Positions 9,001 through 19,695 of a DNA stretch of 64,000 bases are shown here, one piece after another; position 1 is the first letter of the stretch, and every line of letters starts with the position of its first letter. The stretch covers positions 1 to 64,000 of the forward strand of contig JABENI010000016.1 in the NCBI GenBank assembly GCA_013332095.1, read 5' to 3'. This DNA comes from Candidatus Bathyoplasma sp. NZ. GTDB lineage: Bacteria > Bacillota_I > Bacilli_A > MAG-NZ. A program made the position numbers and the translations under genes. Under the pieces are notes generated by a model that did not search any database, was not told the origin of the DNA, and worked only from the letters and a program-made list of their open reading frames with translations.

Positions 9001-11235
9001 TGTATTAATATTCGGTAACTCACCATCAATATAATCTTCCAACTCATAGCCATTTTTATTATTTATTGCAGCTAATGTCCTTTGAACCCTTAATCCATAT
9101 TTTGGTTTGAATTCGCACATTAATTTATTTACAAATTCTTCATCACAATCATTAATATAACATATTTGTTCGAAATATTCCTCTAGAAAACTATCCATAT
9201 TCAATTCTAGTGCATCAATTTCTTTTTTCATTTCGCTTAATATAATGAGATTTTTAAAATCCTTTCTTCTTGTTGCTGTAATCACAAAACTTTTATAATT
9301 TTTCAAAATGGATTCGCTACCATAACCGTTTTGTACTGATAAATTTACAAATTCAATATTTATAAAATTATTAATTGGTTCATACTGATTTAATTCAACT
9401 GCTAATTGAATAAAATATTTATACATTTTCCAACTATCAAAAAAATTTGCAATTTTTCTATTAAAAAATTTAAATAATGGTTTTAAATATAAGACTTTAA
9501 AGTCAACTTGATCTTTAACATGTTTTTCTGAAAAATATCTCTTTATGCTCTCATGATAAAGAGAGAAATTTCCATAACCATCAATGTTAAGAATATGCTT
9601 TATTTTATCTAATCTATTATTAGTTACTTTTTGTTTTATGAAAGCTAGAATAGTTTTTATCTCGCATGAATTCAGAGGAATATTCGTACAACATAGTAGA
9701 GATAAAATTCTATTTTCACAATCATTTCCTTCAATAAGATATTCATAATATTTTTCAATATTACCTTCATAAATTTTAATAGCAGATATAAATTCATTTT
9801 GATTTTCTTTATTAACATTCCTAAGAGCATTTACCATATATTTAGTGTATAAAAAATTACCTTTTGTCTTGCTGTAAATTTCGCAACTTGAATCTTCTAA
9901 ATTAAAAAATTCAAGATACTTTTTGGTCTCTTTATCAGTGATTCTAGAAATATCAATTTTTTGAATATTACAATTATTATCCAAAGGCTGTGATAAAAGC
10001 AAGAGTTTTATGTTTAAATCTTTTATAATTTTTATAAATCTTAAAACCTTATTTAGTTCATTTTCATTTTTTACTCGTTTAATATGGTCTAATCCGTCTA
10101 AAATAAGTATAAATTTTAAATTAGTTTTTTTAAAAAAATCAATAATTTCTTGCTCTGATACTGCTGAAACAGTTATAAATTCTTTGTATGAAATCTTATA
10201 ATTATTTATTAGTTGATCTTTAATTGTATAAAGCATTTGTTGATAGTTACATCTCTCTTTCAAGTGAGAATCTTCTACTGAAATATAGAAATGTAATTTT
10301 ACGATATTAGTTTCTGTATTATTCAATAAAGAATTACTAATTTTTTCGCTAACCCATGATTTCCCTGAACCAGGCTCCCCAATAATGTGCACACTATTTT
10401 CTTTTTTTAATATATTTAATATGCTCTCTATAATTTCATGCCTATTAATATATTCTTTTTCGTATATAGGAAAATTGTTATCAATTATATCTTTTATACG
10501 GTAAACACCTAAATTTTTAAATAATTCATCTGTTGTATAAGCCTTTTCTGAAAATATCCTGCATGATCTTATTTTTTCTTCAATATTTCTTGCAAGATTT
10601 TCCGAAGACTCATTTTGATACGGAAATTGTCCAATTCCTATATCATTATTTAACAACTCTAAAATAAAATTATCAAATAATTTAGGGACATCATAATCAA
10701 ATGAAACTTCCTTAGGTACAGAAAAAAAAGTTAATTCAGAAAGAAATTTTTTAAATATTTCCATATTCGAATGCTCATTTTCAAAATTGTTTTTTAATTT
10801 ATTAAAATTTTCTCTAATATTATTATTTTCTATTATTTTATCTATTTTTAACTTATATGAACGCAAATTTAACAATTTTTCACTTGTATTATCCTTTTTA
10901 AATAAATCTTCACCCAAAACCCTATTCGTAATTATAACTAACTTATAACTGACCTGCTTGTTCATAAGACCTAAATAAGTTTTATAATGTTTATACAAAT
11001 TCAAATCACCACTTGACAACATACTCACAGTAATATTTGAATCTTTAGAATATTTTACTTGTACTTTAAGATAAACATCATTATTTTCTATAATAATATC
11101 ATCAAAATAATCTTCTATGTCTTCTAGTTTTTTTTCTATTATAATTTTAGAATTCTTATTTTCTATAAAATCTTTTATTGACAATAAAGTAGTTATTTTA
11201 TCCTGAAATTCATACCCACCACCAAATCCACTCAA
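6022..11235 (-). CDS. Avs-like STAND NTPase with N-terminal PD-(D/E)xK nuclease (antiviral defence)
   Basis: A TTG at 11235 preceded by AGGAGG at 7 bp is the likely start, giving 1737 residues; an earlier TTG at 11259 would put the AGGAGG inside the gene. Domains, numbered from 11235: residues 1-70 hold GGGYEFQDK, E34, D45/D46 and Q59-V-K61 (in VQVKYSK), the pattern of a Cap4/DUF4297-type nuclease. An NTPase follows, with Walker A GEPGSGKS (286-293) and Walker B LILDGLD (377-383), the STAND style. About 1150 residues of low-complexity helical sequence then look like a solenoid sensor. Avs proteins with this plan sense conserved phage proteins and then degrade DNA. Order and size fit Avs, but the C-terminus is too diverged to place in a numbered type. 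It sits next to a type I RM system. Confidence 0.72.
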   Translation of the reverse strand: MSGFGGGYEFQDKITTLLSIKDFIENKNSKIIIEKKLEDIEDYFDDIIIENNDVYLKVQVKYSKDSNITVSMLSSGDLNLYKHYKTYLGLMNKQVSYKLVIITNRVLGEDLFKKDNTSEKLLNLRSYKLKIDKIIENNNIRENFNKLKNNFENEHSNMEIFKKFLSELTFFSVPKEVSFDYDVPKLFDNFILELLNNDIGIGQFPYQNESSENLARNIEEKIRSCRIFSEKAYTTDELFKNLGVYRIKDIIDNNFPIYEKEYINRHEIIESILNILKKENSVHIIGEPGSGKSWVSEKISNSLLNNTETNIVKLHFYISVEDSHLKERCNYQQMLYTIKDQLINNYKISYKEFITVSAVSEQEIIDFFKKTNLKFILILDGLDHIKRVKNENELNKVLRFIKIIKDLNIKLLLLSQPLDNNCNIQKIDISRITDKETKKYLEFFNLEDSSCEIYSKTKGNFLYTKYMVNALRNVNKENQNEFISAIKIYEGNIEKYYEYLIEGNDCENRILSLLCCTNIPLNSCEIKTILAFIKQKVTNNRLDKIKHILNIDGYGNFSLYHESIKRYFSEKHVKDQVDFKVLYLKPLFKFFNRKIANFFDSWKMYKYFIQLAVELNQYEPINNFINIEFVNLSVQNGYGSESILKNYKSFVITATRRKDFKNLIILSEMKKEIDALELNMDSFLEEYFEQICYINDCDEEFVNKLMCEFKPKYGLRVQRTLAAINNKNGYELEDYIDGELPNINTKTAKYIMNSKNPEKVLEFIQNLEISRDVLYFLWELDLKCPKIKDSDIDFNGLLILSGFHVKLSTFNISKAKEILDKTYIINSELLKLISFTHECDKSNLEHFNYLKEKTDWVSRFYYVLVNNFNLNKYKDDRIFIKYIKLLKNTHKNRYEGKPRACDMHFSFFEVNFLIRNIINNLKNEENIYAILDIILFSDENIIFGIHGLNIEELLDFINFKIKNRYMWKIYRKYLKFHKNSEFSYLELADYSHKLSHIRIKNNKRINKNFAKFVSELLAYTSRKDISFSCMIETVSLIEIPVEKLKFYYELLTYSRYILYRTDGKETRHFEYQIFEKFIKDFQEQAIWYVINKIRRYPNDYNIEKMINCIFENIEGIDENLVLLIYKSLNAGELTNIFESYARIINNNNTKIDDAKISYFEKDLCAKIYTQNNYKPIGKIDELNKFISHINYKYKKFEDLSIFKIEDGNIEKSDMNKTPFIVLDENYDLNNFWIDLRDKNIDYNHSEGVTILKHNINTILRNIKFGYKTDDLHSKIDYLIKIVEDVAEDEIFIEFLVKCFINIKDGWYRSCEYIHYFDKAYNISEQKTSEMLFIYLEKEMNSNFYTYNFSFNVIRLIKKYYNESFCSSLEALIIYQKKRLPYFKKELKLNLEIPKIYNKNTLIILLMMEKMKRLDKHSILNTLSSFKEINDIDNYKNPLSQALKDFYSAYDGNYKIIYRVLYDQFKTNINQLKKDMDIMNIMNSTDIILKAELGLVDFNNEENKIVTNTSERNIQCLLFANNLEKFINIEGIEQIEELFSDSVKYETFLNKNIMPWTEFWSILYPKLIIQNQLYCLILNHINNNVRDNKFNKYEISFIYNQTRFDIEKLIEQNNAQFIPINKNDFIIIEDRLYTHISKDYKMHVERKSENYILQSPVFTKEYIFDIKNDIRKNRDINPYTLNCFHDVNLNMTYKNICSNHGNERVEIAIVMFITKNEYEKLKIFYGKKVKIIGGKIFE

Positions 11236-12725: not shown

Positions 12726-14210
12726 CTAATCTATTACTTCAAATCTCCCCATCATGCCTCTTTCTTCATGAGAAAGAATATGACAATGATACATAAAAAG
12801 ACCAGTATGTTTAAACATTACTTGTACTTTTACCTTGTGACCTTCTCTTACATACACTGTGTCTTTCCATCCAAAATCTTTTGGATCTACTTTTTCACCA
12901 TCAATTTCTACTATCAAAAATCTTGCATTATGAGGATGAAAAGAATGATGTTTATTTGAAATATTATCAATTTCTAAGTAATAAATTTGATTTTTAGTAA
13001 AAGTTTCATCAATTGTATTCATACTAAATTGTTTTCCATTAATTTGATCATTGTCTAATACAAAAGTATTTGTTGTTGCTTGTCCTGTATATTCTTCATA
13101 CATTAAAATAGGGGCTAAGGTACTTATCATATTTGTAGTAAATGGTTTGTCAAAATCGTCATCAGTATCATCATTTATTTTTAAAGTTAATACTTGTTGT
13201 CCATTAGCAATAATATTAACTTCATCTCCAATTTCTTTTGAAGTTAAATCAATTAAAATTTCATACCTTTCACCAGCTGCGATTTCCATAAAATCTTTTT
13301 CTTGACTATTCTCCAAAAATCCCACATCAGTTGCAATAACATTTATTTTATCATTTGTATCAGTTGAAATATCCATTATTCCATGATTACTACCATTTAA
13401 TAACCTCAACCTAATAACTTCACTTCTAACTTCTTTGTAAGGAATGTAAAAACCATTACTCATTATTGTAAAACCACTAGTAGTAGATTGGTTTGAACCA
13501 TCTCCATCTTCAAACATCATACCCATCATATTACTTCTATTCATCATACCAGTTCCACCCATCATTCCGTGGTGTCCATAGGCTAAATTACCATTTTCAT
13601 CAAATTTCTTTGCTTGTAAAACTAGTGGTATGTCATTAACACCGTAAATATCAGGCAAGTCTAATGAATCACTATATTCATCTTCTATAATTATCATACC
13701 GGCTAAACCTTTATAAGCTTGACTTGCAGTAGTACCTAGTGCATGAGGGTGATACCAAATAGTTGCAGCAGCTTGAGAAATTTCCAGATTATATGTTTTT
13801 TCTTCTCCAGGGTATACTCTAGCATTTGGCTCTGCTGCACCGTCACTCATCCCATTAGTTTCTAAACCATGCCAATGAAGAGTAGTTGCTTCATCCAAGT
13901 TATTCATTAATATTGGGTTAAAAGTATCACCTTTTCTCATTTTGAAAGTCTTCCCTAAATAACCTTGCTCATTATAACTAAGAACATCTGTTTTAAAACC
14001 TTCAACAAACTCAAACTCAGTTTTATCGGCAGTAATTATAAAATCTTCATCGAGTGATGAAACATCTATTAATTCAGGAATAAATAACTCTTCATTATTT
14101 CTTATCATATCGACTGTCTTATTGTTCATCAGGTACATTACTCCAAAAGTCACAACTGCTCCAACAACAACTGAAACAAAAATTAATGCAATTACTTTTA
14201 TACTTTTCAT
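12726..14210 (-). CDS. Multicopper oxidase, CueO-like
   Basis: About 494 residues from ATG 14210 (AAGGGG 10 bp upstream; a GTG at 14219 is less likely). An N-terminal membrane anchor or uncleaved signal spans roughly residues 2-28. Copper ligand motifs are complete: HWHG (about 112), WYHPH, HSFHPHN, and near the C-terminus HCHILSHEERGMM, which holds the type 1, 2 and 3 ligands. A methionine-rich stretch (HHGMMGGTGMM and following) is like the CueO Met-rich insert that binds Cu(I). The enzyme oxidises Cu(I) to the less toxic Cu(II) outside the membrane using O2. It follows cueP by 17 bp as the last gene of the copper operon. Need for O2 suggests exposure to oxygen at least at times. Confidence 0.92.
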   Translation of the reverse strand: MKSIKVIALIFVSVVVGAVVTFGVMYLMNNKTVDMIRNNEELFIPELIDVSSLDEDFIITADKTEFEFVEGFKTDVLSYNEQGYLGKTFKMRKGDTFNPILMNNLDEATTLHWHGLETNGMSDGAAEPNARVYPGEEKTYNLEISQAAATIWYHPHALGTTASQAYKGLAGMIIIEDEYSDSLDLPDIYGVNDIPLVLQAKKFDENGNLAYGHHGMMGGTGMMNRSNMMGMMFEDGDGSNQSTTSGFTIMSNGFYIPYKEVRSEVIRLRLLNGSNHGIMDISTDTNDKINVIATDVGFLENSQEKDFMEIAAGERYEILIDLTSKEIGDEVNIIANGQQVLTLKINDDTDDDFDKPFTTNMISTLAPILMYEEYTGQATTNTFVLDNDQINGKQFSMNTIDETFTKNQIYYLEIDNISNKHHSFHPHNARFLIVEIDGEKVDPKDFGWKDTVYVREGHKVKVQVMFKHTGLFMYHCHILSHEERGMMGRFEVID

Positions 14211-14227
14211 TATCCCCACACCCCTTT

Positions 14228-14734
14228 TTATTTAATTTTCATTGTTGTTACACAAGTTTGGTCTCCGTGATTTGTTGTAAATTCCTCAGTTGCAGTTTTA
14301 CCATCAAGACTCACAGTGATTTCAAGCACCTTTTCTCTAGGTAACCAAAGATCTAAAAATCCGTTATTTTGTGTTTTAACTTTCTCGTCTACAATTATTG
14401 TTCCACTTTCATCTTTTACCAAAACATCAAATTCCTTATTTTTAATTTCGCCCTCACACCCCGTTGGACTATGTTGAGTTCAACCGTGTGTATATGTTTC
14501 ATAAGGTGCTATTGATAGATAAAATTCATCTGTTGGCATATCGTAATAACTTGTATTACCATCATCACGAATTTCTAAAACTTCATCTGTTGTCGTCGCA
14601 TAATAATCAGATTTCCCAGAACTTAAATATTCTATTTTTCCTTTTATTGTCATTTCTTCGATATTCTTATCTGAACAAGAAACTAAGATAATTGTTGCTG
14701 CACCTAAAATAAATACCCTAAATATTTTTTTCAT
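14228..14734 (-). CDS. cueP: CueP-family copper-binding lipoprotein with in-frame UGA at a conserved cysteine
   Basis: Two open frames on the same strand and in the same register (14734-14483 and 14479-14228) are separated only by a TGA at 14480-14482. Read through, they give 168 residues. The protein has a signal peptide ending ILVSC (lipobox), the block IAPYETYTHG, the UGA, TQHSPTGCEGE, NNGFLDLWLPRE, and a C-terminal TCVTTMKIK, all CueP hallmarks. In Salmonella CueP the conserved cysteines are 96, 104 and 172; here UGA-to-Cys spacing is 8 and Cys-to-Cys spacing 68, identical. CueP binds copper outside the membrane. Selenocysteine at this UGA or a nonsense mutation are both possible. ATG 14734 is preferred (GGGGG upstream); a GTG at 14740 is the alternative. 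It lies in the copper operon between copA and the oxidase. Confidence 0.75.
14452..14478 (-). promoter_or_regulatory. Possible SECIS-like hairpin just after the cueP UGA
   Basis: Starting two bases after the UGA, CUCA pairs with UGAG, CA pairs with UG after one bulged A, and an inner UCC/GGG closes a small loop. Bacterial SECIS elements sit in this position inside the coding region. The stem is imperfect and the loop does not clearly match known consensus, so this is weak support. Confidence 0.25.
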
Positions 14735-14946
14735 TTTCACTTTCCCCCACTATTTCAATTCCATTAATTTCTAACTCTTTGATAACTTCATCTAAAGTAT
14801 AAAATATCTCTGTGATACTTCATTACTCACTAATTCAAACTCAGTAATATTTTCATGTTTTAGCATTATTTTTACTGCTTCTTTATCTAAATCATTGATA
14901 ATTATTTTATTAGAATATTCATCCAAATCAATTACTTTTCTAAAGA
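14718..14946 (-). pseudogene. Decayed ORF between copA and cueP
   Basis: The minus strand reads DLDEYSNKIIINDLDKEAV and KIMLKHENITEFELVSNEV, then after a frame change FYTLDEVIKELEINGIEIV, ending 14-17 bases inside the cueP start. The two parts look like one small alpha/beta protein disrupted by frameshift. No family is recognised; operon position suggests a copper-related function. The remaining gap up to 15226 holds only unclear fragments. Confidence 0.35.
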
Positions 14947-15226
14947 TACTTTTTTTTAAGAATTCCTATTTCGCATTTCCTAAATTATCTATCTTTTGTC
15001 TATAATAAATGACCTTTCATTATCAATGAATTTTCCTTTTTTAAATCCCCTTGTTTAAAAATACCTATTATTTCATTTTACAACTACCAGAAATCTTATT
15101 GGTTATCTGAATTTTAACTTCGTTTTGCTTCAGCATAAACCATTCCAATTTTTTTTGTATAATGTGATTTTAAGAAAACTAATTACAGGACACCAAAATA
15201 ACCAAACACCAATTAAAATATTTTTC

Positions 15227-15253
15227 CATTACTCTAAACAATATAGAGTAATG
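15227..15253. terminator. Hairpin after copA
   Basis: A perfect 10-bp stem (CATTACTCTA / TAGAGTAATG) lies 26 bp after the copA stop. The T-run is weak on the minus strand, so it may be a partial terminator or an RNA-stabilising hairpin. Confidence 0.4.
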
Positions 15254-15278
15254 AATAGACTAAATTTTGATTTACTCT

Positions 15279-17705
15279 CTAACTTTTATCTAATTCAACT
15301 GTATAACCAGCGCCTTTAACAATATTAATTATCTCTTCTTCTGTTTGATTTCCTTGCTTAATAAGAACCACTTTTGTTTCTATATCGAACTTTGTTTCTG
15401 TTATCCCAATACTTTTAAGTGCATCTTCTATTTTCGCTGCACACTTCATACAAGACATATCATAAATATGTGTCTTTAAGATTTTTAATTTTCCATTTTT
15501 TTCGATTATTTTCTCTGATTCAAATATTTGATTTTGATCAATTTTAAATTTATATCTTTTTAAGCGTAGAGCATTTAATACTACAAAGATTGAAGAGAAG
15601 GCCATTGATATAGCTGCTACAACCATACTCAATTTTCCCATTGCGGCAAGTGGTATAGCTACAAGGTTATAAGAAAATGCCCAAGCAAAATTTTGATAAA
15701 TATTTTTAAGAGTTGCTTTACTTATATCAATCGCCTTAATAACGGTAATTAAATCATGATTCATCAGGGTAACATCACTTGAATCTATTGCCACATCTGT
15801 ACCACTACCCATAGCAATACCAACATCAGCAATTTTTAATGCTGGTGCATCATTGATTCCATCTCCAACAAAAGCTACTACTTTACCTTCTCTTTGGAGA
15901 AGTTGTACTATTTCAGATTTTTCATGGGGTAAAACTTCAGCGTAATAATCATCTACACCAAGTTCATTTGCTATTACCCCTGTAACAGTTTTATTATCAC
16001 CTGAAATAATGTAAGGCGTTAAATTTCTTTTCTTCATTTCTTCAATTAAATATTTAGAACTTTCTTTTATTTGATCCCTTATGGAGTAAAGTCCAACTAA
16101 TTCATTATTTACAGCTATAAAGTTTACCGATTTTGCAGCTTTAATCATCGCTTCATACTCATTTTTATATTTAGAAATATCAATATTATTGTGTTCCATC
16201 AGTTTAATATTACCAATAAAGATATCTTTTTCCTCTATTTGCGCAAATAACCCTTTACCTCTAATTTCTTCAAAGGAATTTAAATCATAAACTTTATTTA
16301 TTTTTTCTTTTAAATATTCATTAACTGAAATACTAATAGGATGTGTAGAATCCTTCTGAATTGAATAAGTATAATCAAATATTTCTTGATTACCGATAAA
16401 ATCAATTACCTCTGGTTTTCCTACAGTTAAAGTACCTGTTTTATCAAAACATATAACATTTATATTTTTTGCGGTTTCAAAGAATTCTCCACCTTTATAT
16501 AAAATATGATTTTTTGCAGCTAAACCACTACCAACTAAGATTGAGGTCGGTGTGGCGAGTCCGAGTGCACAAGGACAAGATATTACAATAACGGCGATTG
16601 ATGCTTCAAATGCATTTGAAAAATCAATGTTAAATAATAAAGTTTGGATTAATAAATTAAGTAAAGCTATTGTCAAAACTACTGGTACAAAAATACTAGC
16701 TATTTTATCAGCCGTTCTTTGAACTGCAGGTTTTTCAGCACTTGCTTCTTCAACTTTTTGAATGATTTGATTTAATACTGTTTCACTACCAATTTTTGTC
16801 GTTTTGACAATAATTTTTCCGTTTAAGTTCATTGTTGCAGAAAATACTTCCGAATCAATTTCTTTTGTTACTGGTAGTGACTCTCCGGTTAACATCGATT
16901 CATCAACCGAACTATTACCTTCAACTATTACACCATCAATAGGAATTTTTTCATTTGCTAAAACAATAATAATATCATTTTTTTTAACATCGTTTATATC
17001 AATTACTTTTTCTATTCCATCAACTAAAATCCTTGCCTCTTTTGCTGCTAAATTCATCAATTCAACTAAGGCATCACTAGTTCTATTTTTTGCGATATGT
17101 TCAATATAGTTACCAACAAGCACTAAAGTTAAAATTAGTGCGCTAGTTTCAAAATAATACTCTCCGTGAGTTATATTATTAATATCATCATATATAACTA
17201 AATAAGTACTATATACAAAGGCTGTAGTCGTACTAATAACTACTAAGATATCCATTCCTAACACTTTTTGTTTCAAACCTTTATATGCTGCTAAATAAAA
17301 TCTTTTTCCAATAAGAACTTGCAGTAAAAGACCACTAACCAATTGGAAATAACCATTTCTAAATATCATCGGAATATTTAAAAATGAAAATACTTGTAAA
17401 TGGGCAAACATGCCAATTAACAAAGGTAGTGATAACATAACAGAAAAATAAACTTCATTTCTCATTTTTCTCATTACTTCTTTTTCTTCTGCTAAGACAT
17501 TACCAGTACTTGGTTTGTAACCTGCTTTTTTAATAATATTGGATATCTCAGCCAATGAAATTTTATCTTCATCATAATCTGCTATAACTTTATTGGCACT
17601 CACATTTACTTTTATTTTTACATCTTCATAAGGTATAAATGCTTTTTCAATTATTTTTGCACAATTACTACAGGTCATACCTTCAACCTTTAGGGTTGTT
17701 TTCAC
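15279..17705 (-). CDS. copA: Cu(I)-exporting P1B-type ATPase CopA with heavy-metal domains at both ends
   Basis: 808 residues. It pumps Cu(I) out of the cytoplasm at the cost of ATP. N-terminal heavy-metal domain with GMTCSNC (C12, C15), TGES actuator motif (273-276), transmembrane metal site CPC (377-379), phosphorylation motif DKTGTLT (421-427), HP (455-456) and [10 protein letters not shown] hinge; all are intact. Unusually, a second heavy-metal domain follows the last membrane helices (MSCMKC, about residue 750, ending [13 protein letters not shown]). It resembles a fused CopZ chaperone, perhaps explaining why no separate copZ is seen. It starts 11 bp after the ArsR-type gene, so they are co-transcribed. 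Confidence 0.96.
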
Positions 17706-17716
17706 TCAATTACCTC

Positions 17717-18058
17717 CTAAAAACACCGATACTCTTTATTATTTTTGGCAATTTTTTTAAAATTATCAACATCTTCTTTTAGAGCATTATCTTTGTTTCT
17801 TACAGCTTTTAGTATTGTCATCAAAAAATTGTAGTCTTCAAATTGTTCATTATAATAGTAAAAAATTCTTGTTGATGTTCTTTTAGTCTTTAAAATAGAA
17901 AATTCTCTTAACTTTGAAAGACTTTTTGAAACTGTGACTTGATGAAGATCCAGAATTTCCTGAAGTTGACATCCACACAGTTCACCCTGCATTAATAAAT
18001 TCAAAATTCTTAGTTTAGAATTATCCGAACATAACTTAAATAACACTGATTTTTCCAT
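17717..18058 (-). CDS. ArsR/SmtB-family metal-responsive repressor
   Basis: 113 residues from ATG 18058, chosen because GGAGGTG lies 4-10 bp upstream; an ATG at 18070 would put that site inside the gene. A winged helix-turn-helix covers roughly 10-80, with ELCGCQLQ at about 27-34, the place where ArsR-type sensors often carry metal-binding cysteines, and HQVTVSKSLSKLRE as recognition helix. The C-terminus ends YRCF, adding another cysteine. These repressors leave DNA when metal binds. First gene of the copA-cueP-oxidase operon, with a perfect palindrome between promoter and start, so autoregulation in response to copper is likely. Confidence 0.87.
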   Translation of the reverse strand: MEKSVLFKLCSDNSKLRILNLLMQGELCGCQLQEILDLHQVTVSKSLSKLREFSILKTKRTSTRIFYYYNEQFEDYNFLMTILKAVRNKDNALKEDVDNFKKIAKNNKEYRCF

Positions 18059-18070
18059 GTTCACCTCCAT

Positions 18071-18726: not shown

Positions 18727-19695
18727 TTATTCTTGATATAATGCTTGTTCATTTATTTTATCTAACTTTACGAACATTAAATAACTTCTTAATACAAAAA
18801 CAAATGAAATAATAACAACTATATAGATAAATTCAAAATTATAAGTCATAATTAAATAACCGCCGATAAAAGTACTAATTGCATCACCAAAATTATATCC
18901 TGTATTTATTATACTCATTAATTTACCATGATTTTCTTTAGGATATTTGGAAAGAATTCTATCAAAAAATAAACTTGATAAAATGGTATACGAAGAAGAA
19001 AACAAAATAATAATACATACCTGAAAAATCAAGTGTGTTTCAAAAAATAATGCAGAATACAAAACGATGAGCAATACTATTATTATTGGGATAAAATTTT
19101 TTATCTTAAACGAATTAATTAATTTGGCGACACAAATACTGAAAATGCCATTTATTAAATTGATAACACCTAATAAATAAATTAACGAAGCAAAAATTAA
19201 TCCTGTTTTAAAGTCATCTTGGATAAATTGTAGATTGTTAATATAACCACTTGCAAACGAACCTATTGTTAAACCTAAGAACCAATAGATTTATTAATTA
19301 TAAAAGAATTATTAATGTTATTGCTTTCTTTAAAGTTTATTAAAACTGGTCATTTAGATTAAGAATCAAAATGAATGAAAATCCATATAAAACGATATCA
19401 ATAGCAACATAACTTGATTTCCAACAATAGCCTGTAACAGAAATAATATACTTGCTGAAATGATTCCAAAAACAAGCAGTATTTTCTGATTTTTCTTATC
19501 TATTAATTTACCAGTATACATACTAAATGCTGCCATAGATACATTATCAACTGCAAAGAAAGTTCCAATAAATAAGTTATTGAAATCACTCGCAGATATG
19601 TACAGTTCATACAAAACAAAAAATATACCCAAACTAAAATATCTTAAAAAAGTTGAAAGTTCATAAAGCAAGAAATTACCGTAACTTTTTTTCAT
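18727..19695 (-). pseudogene. Broken major facilitator superfamily transporter
   Basis: An N-terminal part (19695-19366, MKKSYGNFLLYELSTFLRYF..., with GKLIDKKNQK, the MFS loop 2-3 signature) and a C-terminal part (19074-18727, with SKYPKENHGKLMS and several helices) are separated by about 290 bp. Between them membrane-like sequence continues in changing frames. Together they span one 12-helix transporter with several frameshifts. Substrate unknown. The middle reading frames near 19100-19260 show further hydrophobic MFS-like stretches, so little DNA has been lost. Confidence 0.75.

Follow-up and report, generated by a model that had tools for sequence, protein, structure and literature searches.

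Does the single TGA codon inside a cueP-like gene of Candidatus Bathyoplasma sp. NZ mark a broken gene, or is it read as selenocysteine (Sec)? The window, by which we mean the whole 64,000-nucleotide stretch of DNA that was analysed, carries on its minus strand a frame that runs from an ATG at 14734–14732 to a TAA stop at 14230–14228, and TGA at 14482–14480, residue 85 counted from the ATG, is the sole break in it. The sequence-only reading had described one register with this TGA as its only interruption, and that description holds, with the gene placed on the minus strand. The features of the gene are as follows.

14228..14734, minus strand: cueP coding sequence with in-frame UGA, 168 residues, predicted Sec at 85 (NF038094, PF21172 and 4gqz matches; alignment; 4gqz-fold model)
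14480..14482, minus strand: UGA codon, predicted Sec, at the position of Salmonella CueP Cys96 (4gqz match, alignment, UGA in relatives)
14456..14458, minus strand: codon of the second conserved cysteine, C93 (invariant alignment column)
14252..14254, minus strand: codon of the third conserved cysteine, C161 (invariant alignment column)

The read-through product is a CueP, as had been proposed from the letters alone. It scores above the cut-offs of NCBIfam NF038094 CueP_fam (E = 5e-46, 156 bits, cut-off 60) and Pfam PF21172 CueP (E = 2.5e-42, 144 bits, cut-off 27) and matches Salmonella CueP in the PDB (4gqz, E = 5e-28), with the UGA aligned to the Cys of the THPC motif. The residues that are invariant in CueP are all present after the UGA, and AlphaFold modelling (window and locus proteins) gave a structure with pLDDT 91 that superposes on 4gqz with a TM of about 0.8. 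The three cysteine positions of the family are found at the expected spacing of 8 and then 68 residues, with UGA replacing the first; in Salmonella CueP we take the corresponding residues to be C96, C104 and C172. By eye, the N-terminus reads as a signal peptide that closes with the lipobox LVSC, which suggests that the protein would be exported and membrane-anchored, probably as a lipoprotein. The window protein thus resembles Salmonella enterica CueP (4gqz; NF038095, PF21172) in fold, length, three cysteine positions, export and predicted copper binding. It differs from it in the UGA-encoded first cysteine, in falling under the cut-off of the enterobacterial-type model NF038095 (123 versus 195 bits) and in its probable lipid anchor, Salmonella CueP being free in the periplasm.

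Absence of the selenium machinery from the genome would have spoken against decoding as Sec, and the sequence-only reading had pointed to the four sel genes for this reason. All four are intact in the window's genome (G000, 97% complete), where they stand on contig C29 in the order tRNA-Sec (selC), selD, selA, selB. The tRNA-Sec has anticodon tca and scores 67.8 bits (cut-off 47), and selB scores 328 bits (cut-off 242). The selD gene has a UGA of its own within the frame (CGGUAGK), and a strong hairpin (-10 kcal/mol, GGA loop) comes after it. Upstream of this intact cluster, at 10321–10572 of the same contig (L009), lies a second, partial selD start together with a weak tRNA-Sec-like sequence (32 bits); this is a decayed duplication.

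Judged from sequence, we put the probability that the gene is a selenoprotein form of CueP, its UGA decoded as Sec, at roughly 0.94. SelB and Sec-tRNA(Sec) would decode the UGA, steered by a SECIS hairpin just downstream within the coding sequence, and Sec would take the place of Cys96, the first of three copper-site cysteines, with the second following 8 residues later and the third close to the C-terminus. The support for this reading consists of the intact frame, the sel machinery, conservation of the UGA, SECIS covariation in relatives and exchange between Sec and Cys; Sec insertion itself and the chemical role of selenium are inferred.

Conservation of the codon is evident in near relatives. 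Within the window's order, CueP is present in three of four genomes (the window's included), and each of the three copies has one internal TGA, at the identical codon. The other two genomes, G002 and G003, belong to another genus and share the motif THTULIHSATGC, and their CueP proteins are 34–40% identical to that of the window. Both selB and tRNA-Sec score above cut-off in G002; neither was detected in G003, which is 55% complete. Among the 395 genomes of the class, UGA forms occur only in these three; the remaining CueP genes have no stop, with Cys wherever the motif could be extracted; among 34 of the genomes with these genes, selB was found in 1. UGA is kept within the family of the window and is frequent in Bacillaceae and Desulfobacterota, so the comparison of relatives for UGA or Cys came out in favour of the earlier suggestion. 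The G002 genome (L101), a member of the window's family with tRNA-Sec and selB, is labelled 'Mycoplasmatota bacterium strain zrk6'; according to a 2022 review, Mollicutes apparently do without Sec.

Beyond the family, an earlier scan for relatives that used the window protein alone had returned no matches, whereas a DNA pattern requiring UGA at this codon succeeded. Run on 84,980 species genomes, it matched at least 119 stretches; nearly all matches listed are genuine CueP frames, with more than 110 UGA-CueP genes beyond the window's family. Two matches, L103 and L160, are chance hits and not CueP. The hosts are Bacillaceae (Cytobacillus, Neobacillus, Mesobacillus, Salipaludibacillus, Anaerobacillus, Halalkalibacter and others) and, outside that family, Desulfobacterota or deltaproteobacterial MAGs. 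L069, titled Chryseobacterium sp. ISL-80 (Bacteroidota), has a Bacillaceae-type Sec-CueP; this assembly is likely mislabelled or contaminated.

In the Bacillaceae-level family of Cytobacillus firmus DS1, 194 genomes were searched with a codon-blind profile, and 104 have CueP above cut-off; by listing count these comprise 86 with a one-TGA copy, 16 with Cys only and 2 with partial or fragmented copies; no full-length match has TAA or TAG. In a Desulfobacterota order (243 genomes), CueP is present in 8 genomes and has the UGA in all 8. At the 69 codon-blind loci with an extractable motif, the codon at the UGA site is TGA in 32, TGT in 28 and TGC in 9. This restriction to TGA, TGT and TGC, together with the sel cluster, the conserved UGA and the SECIS covariation described below, strongly supports the original proposal of selenocysteine. 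In a plasmid collection, 22 records have CueP, and the one inspected has Cys. Staphylococcus equorum plasmid pKS1030-2 (L179, 3001–3330) carries the C-terminal part of a Cys-type CueP with a damaged start, adjoining a copper ATPase and missing from the annotation table.

The UGA form also co-occurs with the Sec machinery. In the C. firmus DS1 family, selB is above cut-off in 36 of 36 UGA genomes tested versus 7 of 16 Cys-only genomes (Fisher p = 3e-6, kinship ignored), and over all lineages it is found in 41 of 44 UGA-CueP genomes. One of the three exceptions has tRNA-Sec; the two with neither gene are a 2.9 Mb incomplete MAG and Metabacillus malikii (L078). In M. malikii the UGA-CueP block, at least 5.4 kb long, is 95% identical to one in Robertmurraya massiliosenegalensis (L097), and its Sec-CueP was probably acquired horizontally and stranded without the machinery, unless an assembly gap is responsible. 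The CueP tree needs 9 changes between Sec and Cys, at least three of them forced by supported branches. L173 (Sec) and L190 (Cys) have near-identical proteins, and one genome, G477, has both a UGA and a Cys copy.

Such a double endowment would suit a different role for the codon, in which the Sec-UGA is mainly regulatory: without selenium only a truncated fragment would be made, and copper defence would be gated by selenium supply. Any Sec-UGA gene truncates under selenium scarcity, which is also in keeping with such a switch. However, the repeated exchange of Sec and Cys resembles substitution for function, and an attenuation signal was not found. We consider a selenium-gated switch improbable, and it is no competitor to Sec insertion itself.

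Decoding of the UGA as Sec would call for a SECIS element, and the window offers one candidate.

14450..14469, minus strand: candidate SECIS hairpin with a GGG loop (offset from UGA as in Bacillota relatives; weak, -4.5 kcal/mol)

Folding of the mRNA after the UGA, proposed in the sequence-only reading, gave a divided answer: relatives have covarying hairpins, but the window copy's own hairpin is weak. Alternative folds are as good, it is no better than shuffles, the covariance model of the Bacillota SECIS family does not find it, and an Rfam scan of the locus returned chance matches only. At the level of the family, a SECIS hairpin does lie downstream of the UGA. The Bacillota element has seven pairs and a GGU loop 22–24 nt from the U of UGA (that U counted as 1); 99.3% of cells are paired, 15 cells show double changes versus 2.4 in shuffles, and every slid register scores poorly. 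The Desulfobacterota element likewise has seven pairs, with a GUC loop four nt further downstream than the Bacillota loop, 98.4% pairing and 6 double-change cells versus 1.0 in shuffles. The compensatory changes are largely synonymous (Leu TTG with Gln CAA 69, Leu CTG with Gln CAG 11, mixed 1). Most Cys forms of the C. firmus DS1 family have the hairpin broken by other synonymous codons; L187 and L190 encode a Cys-type CueP yet keep it intact, which points to a recent Sec-to-Cys change. The window gene is thus like SECIS-directed selenoproteins such as SelD of the same genome in having UGA at a Cys-equivalent site, a complete selABCD set and a hairpin in relatives, and unlike SelD in the strength of its own hairpin (-4.5 versus -10 kcal/mol).

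The weakness of this hairpin could also be taken to favour a pseudogene, in which a recent Cys-to-stop nonsense change has left the gene dead or making only its 84-residue N-terminal part. A short decayed stretch just upstream of cueP and a split MFS gene nearby lean the same way, as they indicate that some genes in this region do decay. Yet the frame is otherwise intact and keeps every CueP-invariant residue after the UGA; the UGA is kept in another genus at 34–40% protein identity and across phyla; and TAA or TAG never occurs in full-length copies, which refutes decay for CueP of the C. firmus DS1 family. A recent mutation, which the sequence-only reading had left standing, is effectively excluded by conservation of the UGA across genera and phyla, and we reject the pseudogene as very improbable.

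Among the 44 window ORFs of at least 90 aa, 29 end in TAA, 13 in TAG and 2 in TGA, so TGA is rare as a terminator, as had been remarked, though TGA triplets are commoner than TAG triplets across the window; among the other long read-through frames of the window, none resembles an interrupted gene. Genome-wide reassignment of TGA to a standard amino acid (Trp, its code 4 meaning, or Gly) could draw on this rarity and on the Mycoplasmatota label of the nearest named relative (L101), code 4 being common in Mycoplasmatota, but it has next to no credibility: the same 44 ORFs hold 92 TGG codons and no in-frame TGA, so Trp is not encoded by TGA in general, and with two of them ending in TGA code 4 is rejected; selD ends in TGA, so a plain sense reading of TGA fails for this genome; and at the position aligned to the UGA the residue is Cys throughout, with neither Trp nor Gly occurring.

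CueP as a selenoprotein therefore remains the preferred reading, and this form is widespread and apparently not yet described, with priority likely. Known metal-related selenoproteins include CopZ-family 2Fe-2S proteins, a mercuric transport protein, the SO_0444 Cu/Zn transporter and SaoB/SaoC (PMC13188914); they share with CueP a Sec proposed at metal-handling sites but differ in having unrelated folds and families. CueP is absent from the 119 prokaryotic selenoprotein families with domain accessions in that May 2026 review (PMC13188914), and the passages of the deep-Sep paper that were covered do not mention it. A search of openly available full-text literature for CueP with selenocysteine or selenoprotein returned nothing relevant. 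Together with the inventory, it agrees with the initial impression that no Sec-CueP had been described. If our reading is correct, a common selenoprotein family would be added to the bacterial selenoproteome, and selenium nutrition would be tied to copper handling in soil Bacillaceae and Desulfobacterota. Gene prediction that takes UGA for a stop would cut such genes short, and genes for copper tolerance may be overlooked or split as a result. The occurrence of Sec and Cys forms in close relatives with near-identical proteins, such as L173 and L190, provides a ready-made natural experiment; such pairs could show the benefit of selenium at a copper site and how SECIS elements originate and decay.

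What Sec would do in CueP is suggested by its surroundings, a copper defence cluster within which the protein would work.

12726..14219, minus strand: multicopper oxidase gene, just downstream of cueP (Cu-oxidase domains)
15279..17705, minus strand: copper-type P1B ATPase (CopA-like), upstream (E1-E2 ATPase and two HMA domains)
17717..18070, minus strand: ArsR-family regulator (HTH_5)

The regulator is likely the metal sensor of the cluster, a sensing role that we infer. In G002, cueP lies near a CopA and HMA proteins; the cueP neighbours examined in Bacillaceae and Desulfobacterota are mixed. Salmonella CueP provides SodCII with copper and has a protective role against the metal (PMC7558416), and its C104 is required for copper resistance (PMC13201067); a paper cited in the latter has, going by its citation, interfacial disulfides and copper sites as its topic. 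These copper roles and the gene neighbours favour a selenolate that takes part in a Cu(I) site, either binding the metal or acting as a redox switch. CueP would then be an exported copper-binding metallochaperone, here probably a lipoprotein, whose extracytoplasmic selenolate most likely either coordinates Cu(I) or forms the reactive partner in a selenenylsulfide/disulfide redox switch that governs how Cu(I) is loaded and released. Whether the whole of this picture applies, namely a selenolate Cu(I) site in an exported metallochaperone and not in a redox enzyme, in a widespread, undescribed family that exchanges Sec and Cys repeatedly as lineages keep or lose the machinery, we regard as an evenly balanced question.

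Between copA and cueP, positions 14741–15278 (minus strand) hold a decayed or frameshifted frame with no intact ORF, and pieces in two frames resemble one former small protein. Further along, at 18727–19695 (minus strand), an MFS transporter gene is split in two and is probably a pseudogene.
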